Source: Candidatus Tenderia electrophaga
GTDB lineage: Bacteria; Pseudomonadota; Gammaproteobacteria; Tenderiales; Tenderiaceae
Length of the DNA: 64,000 bases
NCBI GenBank assembly: GCA_001447805.1
Contig: CP013099.1
Coordinates: 1,984,001-2,048,000 of the forward strand
Direction of reading: 5' to 3'
Part shown: positions 34,871 through 42,627 of the stretch, one piece after another
Numbering within the stretch: the first letter of the stretch is position 1
Layout of the letters: the number at the start of each line of letters is the position of its first letter
The notes under the pieces: model-generated
The model's input: the letters and a program-made list of their open reading frames with translations, nothing else
What the model was told of the DNA's origin: nothing
Database searches by the model: none
Position numbers and translations under genes: made by a program

Positions 34871-35258
34871 CTGCGCGTCTTCCTCCTCGATCCAGTGGTG
34901 GTGTGCATGGGTGCATTGGAGGCAACCATAACCAAGCTGTCTTGCAGCTCTGTGACAGGGATGATGGCAGGGGGGCAGCCGCGGCTATGCGTTTTACCCT
35001 CGGGGTCACCCTGCCGCAGGAAATCCTCCGGTCCCTAATGACTGTAGGGAAGGGCGTGATCTCAGTCAATCGGCGCAGTCCTTAATGATCCTGAAGCCTG
35101 CGGCGAGGCGTGATTCGCGCCGCCATGCTGACCGCCAAAAGATGCGGTGTCTGTCGTCTGTCGGTTATCCGTTGTTGCCCTCAAGTGGTCATGCGCATGC
35201 GCCACCCTGGCTGGACGATTTGCTAGACTGGTCAGACTGAACTTTCAGAGTGACCGAT
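34871..35258. other. Divergent intergenic region between fbaB and an unknown gene
   Basis: Nearly 390 bases that should hold the promoters for both directions. No open frame with family features was seen. No strong operator palindrome was found. Confidence 0.5.
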
Positions 35259-36110
35259 ATGCTGAACCGCTTATTCAAAACACAGGCACCGCTGCCGGAA
35301 GCGACCATCGACTGGCTGTTCCAGGGCTTTGCCTGGGCCCTGCAGGGGTTCGGCAGTGATGTCTTTTACCGGGAAACCATCCTCGTCGAGCCGTCCAATC
35401 GCTGTTTTCCCGGCACGGGCGAAAGCGTCGAGGAGATGGCCGCCCTGATCCTGGGCCATGTCAAACGCTACGCCGGCTTGGACTATCTGCCTTGCCGTGT
35501 CGCCGATCATCGCGAATTCGACCCGTCGGCTGCCGCCCTGGCCAACATGCAGCAGGTGATGCAGGGGCTACACAGCGGTGACGCTGCGGTCCTGACCTTG
35601 CTGTATGAGCCTCAGCAGGTCGGCAACCCGAATGCCATGGTCGCCAATTATGCCCATGCGCTGGCCTATCATCTGGGATCCATGGCCCAAGCCCCGGCGC
35701 ACTGTGAGGAGGCGCAATGGCCACACTTGATGGAGCTTCTGGCGGTCTACATGGGCTTCGGGATTATGTTCGTCAACACCGCCCGGCCCAAGGTGAATGT
35801 GGGGTGTGGCAGTTGCGGCAACCCCGCCATGGAACGCAAAGGGGCCATGGATGAGATGGAGGTGCTCTATGCCCTGGCGATCTTTTGTGTACTGAAGGAT
35901 GTCCCCGCCCAACAAGCGCTCCCGCACCTTAAGGCTTATCTCAAACCGTTGCTGAAAAAGGCGATCAAGGATGTAGCGCAAAGAAACGATTGGTTGGCGC
36001 AGTTGCGGGGCATCGACTGCCCTGCCCGAATCCGTGGTCAGTCCATGACTGCCAAGCCGGACCAGGGATCAGGGGGTCAGACGCGTTTGGCCGGCGCGCC
36101 CATAGAATGA
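35259..36110 (+). CDS. Unknown soluble protein with CGSCGNP motif
   Basis: 283 residues. I do not recognise a named family. The N-terminal half has VEPSNRCFPGTGESVEEMAA and LPCRVADHREFDP; the middle has NVGCGSCGNPAMERKGAMDE, a CxxC pair that might hold metal. Helices predominate and there is no signal or membrane segment. ATG 35259 or in-frame GTG 35250 may start it. It stands alone. Confidence 0.65.
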   Translation: MLNRLFKTQAPLPEATIDWLFQGFAWALQGFGSDVFYRETILVEPSNRCFPGTGESVEEMAALILGHVKRYAGLDYLPCRVADHREFDPSAAALANMQQVMQGLHSGDAAVLTLLYEPQQVGNPNAMVANYAHALAYHLGSMAQAPAHCEEAQWPHLMELLAVYMGFGIMFVNTARPKVNVGCGSCGNPAMERKGAMDEMEVLYALAIFCVLKDVPAQQALPHLKAYLKPLLKKAIKDVAQRNDWLAQLRGIDCPARIRGQSMTAKPDQGSGGQTRLAGAPIE

Positions 36111-40638: not shown

Positions 40639-40957
40639 GCGGCGGCTCTCTGTTAAGGGGGGCGGTGGAGGCTTGGGTTAGCTTAGAACATAAGGCCGCA
40701 GCGATCATGTGTAAAGCCGGTGCGGGACAAAGTCGACTCGCCTGATACCGCCCGGCAGCCGATGCGGGGGCATTTATTTCATGCGAAAATTTTCACACCC
40801 AGCATTGATACATTCTATGAGCATCAAACCGTGGCAATTTGCATAATAGGGCCCATACTTGATCAATTTTATCGGGTATTGTCTGTGGCTTTTATCAGCG
40901 GTGCTGATAAGTGTTCAATCTTTCCGCTGTCTATCGCGTTAATGTGAGGAACAAACT
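40639..40957. promoter_or_regulatory. Divergent regulatory region with palindrome TTATCAGC-GGT-GCTGATAA
   Basis: About 320 bases between GH15 and the RuBisCO small-subunit-like gene. The right half is AT-rich. TTATCAGC (40892-40899) and GCTGATAA (40903-40910) are perfect arms around GGT, 48 bases before the ATG at 40958, fitting an operator or an RNA hairpin in the leader. GTGAGGAAC precedes that ATG as ribosome site. Confidence 0.5.
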
Positions 40958-41443
40958 ATGCAAACAGCCTTGTCTTCAGACCACGCCACCGAGCTGCCGT
41001 GTCTGGCCGTGATTCAACACCTGATCCAGGAGAACCTGTGGGGTGACTGGGTGATACGTATTGAACACCGTGCCCCGGATACACGCTCGAGCTACGCGTG
41101 GCAGGCCTGGGGCGACGCGTTTTTTGCAGTTGAAGACCCGGCACCGGTTCTTGATGCCATTAAGGCTTGCTATTCGACCCATGCCGATCATGAGGTACGT
41201 CTGTGCGCCGACAAGCTTCAGCCGGCGTCGCGCTTGATCTATCGCATCCCGACGCCCGATCGGGACCTTCCCCTGGTTGATCAACCACTGCCGGAAGCGG
41301 CACCCCAGCCGGGGATCGTCATGGGACAGAACGCATCCACCGCCGTGCGTAAGGTTTTCGCCGCACACCGACGCTGGGGCAGCGTCGCCCTGGTGGGGGG
41401 CTTGCTGGTATCCGCACTGCTGTTCGGCTTCACACCGATGTGA
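40958..41443 (+). CDS. RuBisCO small-subunit-like domain protein with C-terminal membrane anchor
   Basis: 161 residues. Residues about 15-98 align by eye with RuBisCO small subunits: a helix, then GDWVIRIEHRAP (compare small-subunit NPAIEHTEP), Y-W-W aromatics at 46-51, FFAVEDPAPVLDAIKAC, HEVRLCADK and IYRIP. A Pro-rich linker leads to a basic RKVFAAHRRW and a membrane helix (about 140-158). It has no large subunit, carboxysome gene or carbonic anhydrase beside it. Known relatives without catalysis include the SSU-like repeats of CcmM, which gather RuBisCO. A protein that tethers RuBisCO or a similar partner to the membrane is a hypothesis; the fold call is the firmer part. Confidence 0.6.
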   Translation: MQTALSSDHATELPCLAVIQHLIQENLWGDWVIRIEHRAPDTRSSYAWQAWGDAFFAVEDPAPVLDAIKACYSTHADHEVRLCADKLQPASRLIYRIPTPDRDLPLVDQPLPEAAPQPGIVMGQNASTAVRKVFAAHRRWGSVALVGGLLVSALLFGFTPM

Positions 41444-41844
41444 TACCCCGCGCGGTGGATTGCCGGGTCATCCGCCGCCGACATGCGCTGCTAGAGACAC
41501 AAGCCGAAGTGCGATTGACCCCGATTCCTCACCACCATTCTTGGCGAGACGGTTCAAGCGTGCGGCATGGTCGGCCTTTACTCTCGAGTAACAGCCGGCC
41601 AGATTAGCATTGAGCCGTCGCAGCACCAGCGGCGGTGAGAAACACGGATTTGCGCCCCAAAATATTGAGCATGTGTGCTCATTCTCCCATTCCCTCGCTT
41701 CAATCCCCCTGAACCTGACAGGCGCCACCCATTGCTCGAGGTGTTAGCAGTGTTTACCAATAGCCTGCTATTGTCCGGTAGAATGCCTTGACCAGGCCAC
41801 GCTTCGGTATAAATCTGGGAATATTTCAACGGGAGGTCGTGCTA
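41444..41844. other. Intergenic stretch, no gene recognised
   Basis: Four hundred bases between the small-subunit-like gene and a lipoprotein gene. Short open frames in both strands show no family features. CAACGGGAGGTCGTGCTA at the right end is the ribosome site of the next gene. Confidence 0.5.
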
Positions 41845-42288
41845 ATGCATCAACATAAACGCATTCCGCTTGGGTTGGTTTTGATTTTTCTGGGGCTGCT
41901 CAGCGGCGCCTGCACAGTTCACTATGTGGCCGACTATAACGCCGAAGTCAAGGCGGATATCCTGCGCGTCGCCAAGCAGGTGGATCTGTTTTGGGGAAAA
42001 TTACTGGCGACGCCCGTCGACCAGCGTCAGTATGCCAAATTCAAGGACGACTACATCCGCATCGAGACCGACTTGCGCGGACTGCTCATGCAAAACCGTA
42101 TTAGACCGCTGAATGAGCTTTCCACCCAGCAGTCCCAGATAGCGCTGGAGCTGTGGGAGCAAGATATGGCCGACCATAAAAACAATGAGGGCATTTCAGA
42201 TTTTATCGCCAAACGTCATCGACAGGATTTTGTGCGGGTGTTCGTGGCCATGGCCAAGGGCGAGGAAGCCAAGCAGCTGGATGAATGA
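41845..42288 (+). CDS. Predicted lipoprotein, unknown function
   Basis: 147 residues. A signal segment ends in a lipobox (LLSGAC), so the mature protein starts at a lipidated Cys. The remainder is helical with many charged residues (VADYNAEVKADILRVAKQVD, later FIAKRHRQDFVRVFVAMAKG). GGGAGG eight bases before ATG 41845 fixes the start. The next gene follows after 30 bases and is likely co-transcribed. No named family recognised. Confidence 0.75.
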   Translation: MHQHKRIPLGLVLIFLGLLSGACTVHYVADYNAEVKADILRVAKQVDLFWGKLLATPVDQRQYAKFKDDYIRIETDLRGLLMQNRIRPLNELSTQQSQIALELWEQDMADHKNNEGISDFIAKRHRQDFVRVFVAMAKGEEAKQLDE

Positions 42289-42318: not shown

Positions 42319-42627
42319 ATGGATATTGAAAAGATTCTGCGCGATATGGCGCAGGCGGCGAATAACGCGGTCAAGGATGATGTCGGCGAGATCACCGAGT
42401 ACGCGAAGCAGATTATCGACAACGAAAAACAGTCGTTGGAGGAACTGGGCAAAGCCCGGCTGCGCGGCGAAATTGACGATGCCATTTTTGACAGCGAGGT
42501 CGAGCGACAGAAAAAGGTGGTCGAAGTCGAGATGCTGACCATCCAGATCATGACCAAGGCGGCGGCGCAGAAGGCGGTCAATGCGGCACTGGATACCTTT
42601 AAGAGGGCGATTAAGGCGCTGGTCTAG
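42319..42627 (+). CDS. Helical cytoplasmic protein, unknown function
   Basis: 102 residues, predicted entirely helical and probably coiled-coil (EITEYAKQIIDNEKQSLEEL). GGGGGAGGTG before ATG 42319 is a strong ribosome site. It has no signal peptide. It follows a lipoprotein gene and probably belongs to the same operon. Not recognised. Confidence 0.7.
   Translation: MDIEKILRDMAQAANNAVKDDVGEITEYAKQIIDNEKQSLEELGKARLRGEIDDAIFDSEVERQKKVVEVEMLTIQIMTKAAAQKAVNAALDTFKRAIKALV

Follow-up and report, generated by a model that had tools for sequence, protein, structure and literature searches.

At 2,024,958 (2.02 Mb) in the genome of Candidatus Tenderia electrophaga, distant from both of its cbb clusters, begins a gene for a 161-residue protein that carries a RuBisCO small-subunit-like (SSUL) domain, a proline-rich linker and a C-terminal hydrophobic segment (Table 1). 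The gene lies in the 64,000-nucleotide stretch of contig CP013099.1 that was analyzed (positions 1,984,001 to 2,048,000, forward strand), which we call the window. Its neighbors encode a GH15 glycosidase, a lipoprotein-like ORF and a sensor kinase, and the initial annotation, which had called the gene an orphan, was correct in this respect. The small lipoprotein-like ORF downstream has no Pfam match and is followed by an unassigned ORF of 102 amino acids, and elsewhere in the window there is a 286-amino acid ORF with a CGSCGNPAMERKG motif, also without a Pfam match at 1e-5. About 50 nt upstream of the SSUL gene is a perfect inverted repeat, TTATCAGCGGTGCTGATAA, composed of TTATCAGC-GGT-GCTGATAA, which is partly kept in the congener, including its core TCAGC..TGCTGA, and which could possibly be a regulator site. 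It was considered as a LysR/CbbR site and rejected: the core TCAGCNNTGCTGA has a single other site in the genome, at neither cbb cluster, and therefore no regulatory claim is made. A promoter and terminator scan returned nothing on the + strand.

Table 1. Positions, within the window, of the SSUL gene, its parts and nearby features
Feature	Window position	Strand	Residues	Basis or remark
Whole gene: SSU-like domain, Pro-rich linker, C-terminal hydrophobic helix	40958..41443	+	161 aa	ATG start, TGA stop
RuBisCO small-subunit-like domain	41003..41251	+	16-98	AlphaFold2 on family-only alignment, VIA Z, dN/dS
Pro-rich linker, low confidence	41252..41374	+	99-139	Six prolines in residues 99-136; pLDDT mostly <50
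Predicted tail-anchor helix, N-in topology	41375..41431	+	140-158	Hydropathy, K/R flanks, kept in congener
Perfect inverted repeat	~40892-40910			
Small lipoprotein-like ORF	41788-42285			
ORF after the lipoprotein-like ORF	42319-42627		102 aa	
ORF with CGSCGNPAMERKG motif	35250-36110		286 aa	

Small-subunit homology, predicted fold and host RuBisCO genes

The Pfam model PF00101 (RuBisCO_small) matches the protein with 38.6 bits (E 1.1e-9, gathering cut-off 27) over residues 19-84, corresponding to profile positions 15-80 of 97, and this is the sole Pfam domain found, while no NCBIfam model matches. A phmmer search against PDB chains gave an RbcS as top match (E 1.5e-6). With an alignment that included RbcS, AlphaFold2 reproduced the order of elements of the small subunit (SSU), and Foldseek ranked RbcS chains first for this model, the best being 6uew, the Halothiobacillus neapolitanus RuBisCO/CsoS2 entry. 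Because the presence of RbcS in the alignment could bias the model, AlphaFold2 was rerun with the nine members of the protein family described below as the only sequences, and the same elements were obtained (helix 16-26, strands 31-38 and 49-56, helix 62-74, strands 79-86 and 91-97), with a pLDDT of ~73-93 per 10-residue block over residues 21-100. Compared with known structures, the family-only model has a VIA Z of 12.3 to RbcS 2ybv_B and 12.2 to 6uew_F, and its matches at VIA Z 12.3-10.2 are all RbcS chains. A four-stranded sheet with two helices, the RbcS fold, is what both models predict for residues 16-98, and the linker and helix region is of low confidence in both. The likeness to RbcS/CbbS consists of a homologous domain above the Pfam cut-off and a predicted alpha-beta-beta-alpha-beta-beta order, both of them computed results. 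The initial annotation had read an RbcS/CbbS-like pattern in residues 15-98 and had named an RbcS-family HMM search, structure prediction and the genome context of form I RuBisCO as checks: the pattern held, the search gave a significant match, the SSU fold is predicted even from the family alone, and form I is present twice in the Tenderia genome.

In a scan of that genome (the 3.66 Mb contig and a second contig), PF00101 found three sites, the SSUL gene and two proper CbbS (1.9e-38 and 3.7e-38). Of the two cbbLS pairs, the one at 0.23 Mb has cbbQO-type genes beside it, and the one at 0.72 Mb is accompanied by csoS2, a csoSCA region, an acRAF-like gene, SbtA and an SbtB-like gene. The two pairs fit the published description of this organism as having a form IAc (carboxysomal) and a form IAq RuBisCO (PMC5371394). 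Since a proper cbbS lies beside both cbbL genes, the SSUL gene is an extra copy, and unlike RbcS/CbbS it is not paired with cbbL and its product has a linker and a membrane helix.

Linker, C-terminal helix and selection

The Pro-rich linker (six prolines per 38 residues) and the C-terminal hydrophobic segment of the initial annotation are both borne out. The 19-residue Kyte-Doolittle maximum is 2.02, at residues 143-161, compared with only 0.25-1.05 in 19 true RbcS, and a membrane helix is predicted here. Four K/R residues immediately precede the helix and no charge follows it, which predicts that the SSU domain faces the cytoplasm and that the helix is a tail anchor, and the N-side K/R flank is present in 3/3 anchored family members. 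The helix prediction and its N-in flanks are computed; that the protein has a single C-terminal helix, a cytoplasmic N-terminus and a tail anchor is inferred from sequence alone, and membrane insertion itself is likewise an inference. Only the Tenderia (G000), G003 and G046 proteins, three of the nine family members, have the C-terminal helix, and a tether therefore cannot be the function common to the whole family.

The congener G003 (L005/L034) has a full-length ortholog, 77% identical, and dN/dS for the whole gene against it is 0.25 (NG86, one pair of congeneric species), which together indicate a maintained gene. By part, the SSU domain (residues 1-98) has a dN/dS of 0.17, the linker (99-136) 0.63 and the helix region (137-161) 0.18, with few sites in each of the latter two, and low values at both ends with a higher value in the linker are the pattern expected of a binding domain, a spacer and an anchor. 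In this two-species comparison purifying selection acts on both the SSU domain and the helix, and the spacer drifts. It could be supposed that the gene is a decaying, functionless RbcS duplicate with a chance hydrophobic tail, as would suit a gene that is rare, patchy and an orphan in Tenderia, but the dN/dS of 0.17-0.18 at both ends, and the G046 protein, which is only 35% identical and also has the helix, leave almost no room for this explanation. A pseudogene is in the main ruled out by the dN/dS pattern.

A family linked to alpha-carboxysome genes

When the genome contigs were searched with the single Tenderia protein, only the congener was found, and the other members needed profile searches, the relatives being eight (G003, G046, G134, G141, G025, G402, G403 and G411). 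A three-row profile gave 88.8 bits for G134 and 69.8 bits for G141, with RbcS at 44.6 and below; a six-row profile gave at least 84 bits for new members and up to 50 for true RbcS; and a nine-row profile gave at least 124 bits for members and at most 60 for RbcS. Because the profiles include members, the members' own scores are inflated; the three-row profile had already separated G134 and G141 from RbcS. PF00101 matches 9/9 family members individually at E <= 0.01, and the motifs GDW.IRIEY, W..W, C71 and RL.AEK..P.SRF are family-wide. The G134 and G411 proteins have a Pro-rich tail at the C-terminus, and those of G141 and G025 are almost bare domains; the G025 protein (L073:14548-14922) is the most divergent and is without the W31 and K86 of the others. 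Just below the family the searches ranked other RbcS ORFs of ~150 aa, which were at first considered as relatives; judged by sequence, these are red-type (form IC/ID) CbbS carrying their usual C-terminal extension, and they were set aside.

In the tree the family is a cluster separate from all RbcS, and two further differences bear on whether it could act as RbcS does. A TFSFL/TFSYL-type N-terminal arm is present in 19/19 RbcS and in 0/9 family members, a computed loss, and 9-15 residues stand ahead of the first helix in the family versus 17-29 in RbcS. In H. neapolitanus, the CsoS2/CsoSCA peptides bind at a site bordered by CbbS residues D94 and Y96 (PMC10614612). When these are mapped onto the family via the D-x-Y-x-x-S loop pattern, the D94 position is D in 12/12 carboxysome-type CbbS and K in eight of the nine family members; at the Y96 position, 12/12 carboxysome-type CbbS have Y/F and the family members have Q, R, H, S or G. 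With the arm absent and the docking residues replaced, the protein is therefore not a spare CbbS and is unlikely to present the docking site of CbbS. Indeed, an ordinary but misplaced CbbS is ruled out, the arm and docking residues being missing and a proper CbbS being present. The charge-swapped docking residues show that this surface has diverged, but they do not indicate a replacement partner.

The same positions bear on a decoy or assembly factor, in which the SSUL would occupy CbbS sites on the large-subunit octamer, or compete with CsoS2/CsoSCA, and so regulate RuBisCO assembly, activity or packaging. The RbcS fold is retained with its W..W..FF core and the conserved R81, and since the D94/Y96 equivalents are replaced, an octamer carrying SSUL would lose docking sites (PMC10614612). 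However, the N-terminal arm, the source of most RbcS-RbcL salt bridges, is gone (PMC7059596), and the CcmM SSUL avoids the RbcS site (PMC8580825), and we regard a decoy as unlikely.

Across the genomes searched, the family is rare and its distribution patchy. CsoS2 (PF12288) is found in 72 of 369 sampled genomes of the class, and all five family genomes within this sample are among the 72, for which the chance is 2.5e-4 if genomes are independent, although genome kinship weakens the true figure. With the four family genomes outside the class sample included, CsoS2 is encoded in 9/9. Two congeners with CsoS2 have no SSUL gene in their drafts, which are 83-88% complete. The linkage to alpha-carboxysomes is also one of position, since an alpha-carboxysome gene neighborhood holds six of the nine family genes, and the orphans are those of Tenderia, G003 and G402; in the first two genomes the gene is either remote from the cbb clusters or carried by another contig. 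In G046 (L035:13255-16903) the SSUL gene comes directly after a CsoS1D-like BMC gene of the same strand, where the csoS cluster ends, and in G025 it is upstream of a CsoS1D-like gene (~97 nt, same strand). In G134 and G411 it is beside SulP and CbbR, after csoS/McdA-like genes; in G141 a SulP gene on the same strand, beyond the csoS cluster, ends ~46 nt upstream of it; and in G403 it is between SulP (~60 nt upstream, same strand) and cbbL. The neighbor names CsoS2, BMC, SulP, Sbt, P-II and LysR are from scans and the remaining names are from reading of the sequences. The G046 gene also lies between two mutually similar LysR (CbbR-like) genes, after which come SbtA and a P-II (SbtB-like) gene.

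In E. coli, a SulP that Thiomicrospira pelophila encodes next to its carboxysome genes sustains growth at low CO2 and leads to DIC accumulation (PMC12628692), and the repeated SulP/Sbt adjacency suggests the possibility that the protein is located where bicarbonate enters, the link to a transporter being inferred only. A rival, less favored reading makes the SSUL a transporter partner: sensing or binding RuBisCO, or else the surface of the carboxysome, it would regulate SulP or SbtA or recruit one of them; helix-less members would then be anchored via the transporter itself, and the Tenderia domain would have acquired its own anchor. In favor of this, SulP is directly upstream on the same strand in two genomes and adjoins the SSUL gene together with CbbR in two others, SbtA/SbtB are a few genes away in G046, and the role would suit the whole family, the helix not being needed. 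Against it, no transporter is adjacent in Tenderia or G402, and CsoS1D adjoins in G046 and G025; DIC transporters are usually near carboxysome loci, so that adjacency may reflect no more than a shared neighborhood. The CsoS1D-like gene that is the immediate same-strand neighbor in the latter two genomes favors yet another explanation, in which the SSU fold is reused without RuBisCO binding, for example for the shell protein CsoS1D or a regulator, and the family-specific RL.AEK..P.SRF motif stands in place of the RbcS loop. The core SSU residues are nonetheless conserved, the association with CsoS2 genomes does not point to the shell in particular, and fold reuse seems to us improbable.

Proposed function and comparison with known systems

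Our preferred reading is that the Tenderia protein would be a tail-anchored adaptor, with a cytoplasmic SSUL domain, a flexible linker and one C-terminal inner-membrane helix. The SSUL domain would dock on the form I RuBisCO holoenzyme and leave CbbS in place, by analogy with the CcmM SSUL, which binds a groove between large-subunit dimers of the holoenzyme and does not use the RbcS site even when offered RbcL8 (PMC8580825). Docked in this way, it may keep RuBisCO, or an alpha-carboxysome either nascent or complete, at the inner membrane where bicarbonate enters. RuBisCO binding, the binding site and the partner, whether carboxysomal IAc or free IAq, are inferred only, and we consider the adaptor as likely to prove wrong as right. 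Counting against it are the lack of binding, localization or expression data, the position of the SSUL gene away from the cbb clusters in Tenderia and its congener, the absence of the helix from six of the nine members, the charge swap at the CsoS2/CsoSCA docking positions, and the patchy presence of the family; moreover, RuBisCO packaged inside a carboxysome shell would be inaccessible to a membrane protein. The membrane tether or regulatory SSU mimic put forward in the initial annotation is supported, and is strengthened by the alpha-carboxysome and bicarbonate transporter neighbors, with the reservations that RuBisCO binding is inferred and that most members are without the helix.

A bolder reading, to which we give rather less credence, is that the family is an independent alpha-carboxysome RuBisCO-docking adaptor which, in Tenderia and one other lineage, is a tail-anchored tether joining RuBisCO or carboxysomes to the inner membrane where bicarbonate is imported, and so would parallel, in bacteria, the membrane tethers of the pyrenoid. 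If true, a separate SSUL family in alpha-carboxysomes would mean the same trick in both carboxysome lineages, and the membrane-anchored version would be a first bacterial candidate for a protein that keeps RuBisCO at the membrane; the placing of RuBisCO or carboxysomes relative to bicarbonate transporters bears on the engineering of CO2-concentrating mechanisms. The initial annotation had noted that such an arrangement would be new, and no mention of the family was found in the literature searched, which is weak evidence as only open-licence papers were covered.

SSU-like domains are documented in CcmM and in a cyanobacterial Rubisco-activase homologue, only in cyanobacteria (PMC7059596). The initial annotation had assigned such domains to CcmM/CsoS-type scaffolds, of which the CcmM part held and the CsoS part failed, the activase homologue being the second documented carrier. 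The cyanobacterial domains are without RbcS residues 3-17, which form the arm (PMC7059596), and the Tenderia protein is similar to them in having an SSU-like domain outside RuBisCO, loss of the arm, a flexible linker and a tie to carboxysomes. It differs in that the domain is in single copy, N-terminal to the linker and followed by a membrane helix, with no gamma-CA or AAA domain in the chain; the hosts of the family, unlike those of the cyanobacterial domains, are proteobacteria with alpha-carboxysomes, and the second W of W..W, absent in the cyanobacterial domains, is kept. The family profile matches SSUL chains of CcmM (E 4e-4) and the SSUL of the activase homologue (E 0.066). In a tree of an 84-column core the family groups together (UFBoot 71), and a split of the family plus CcmM/activase from RbcS has a UFBoot of 89, but because of the great length of the cyanobacterial branch common origin with CcmM/activase is not claimed. 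Because the domain is so short, origin from form IA, form IC or the cyanobacterial SSULs is unresolved.

Within alpha-carboxysomes, the N-terminal peptides of CsoS2 and CsoSCA recruit RuBisCO (PMC10614612), a role that for the SSUL is only proposed, and unlike the SSUL they are short motifs of a scaffold or a carbonic anhydrase, with no SSU homology. A comparator for the membrane-anchored form is the pair RBMP1 and RBMP2 of the Chlamydomonas pyrenoid, which are a proposed transmembrane link of RuBisCO to a CO2-supplying membrane (PMC10473226), as the Tenderia protein may be to the inner membrane. They are eukaryotic and unrelated, and bind via a short Rubisco-binding motif rather than an SSU-like fold, so that the precedent they offer, by analogy, concerns the idea and not the protein itself.
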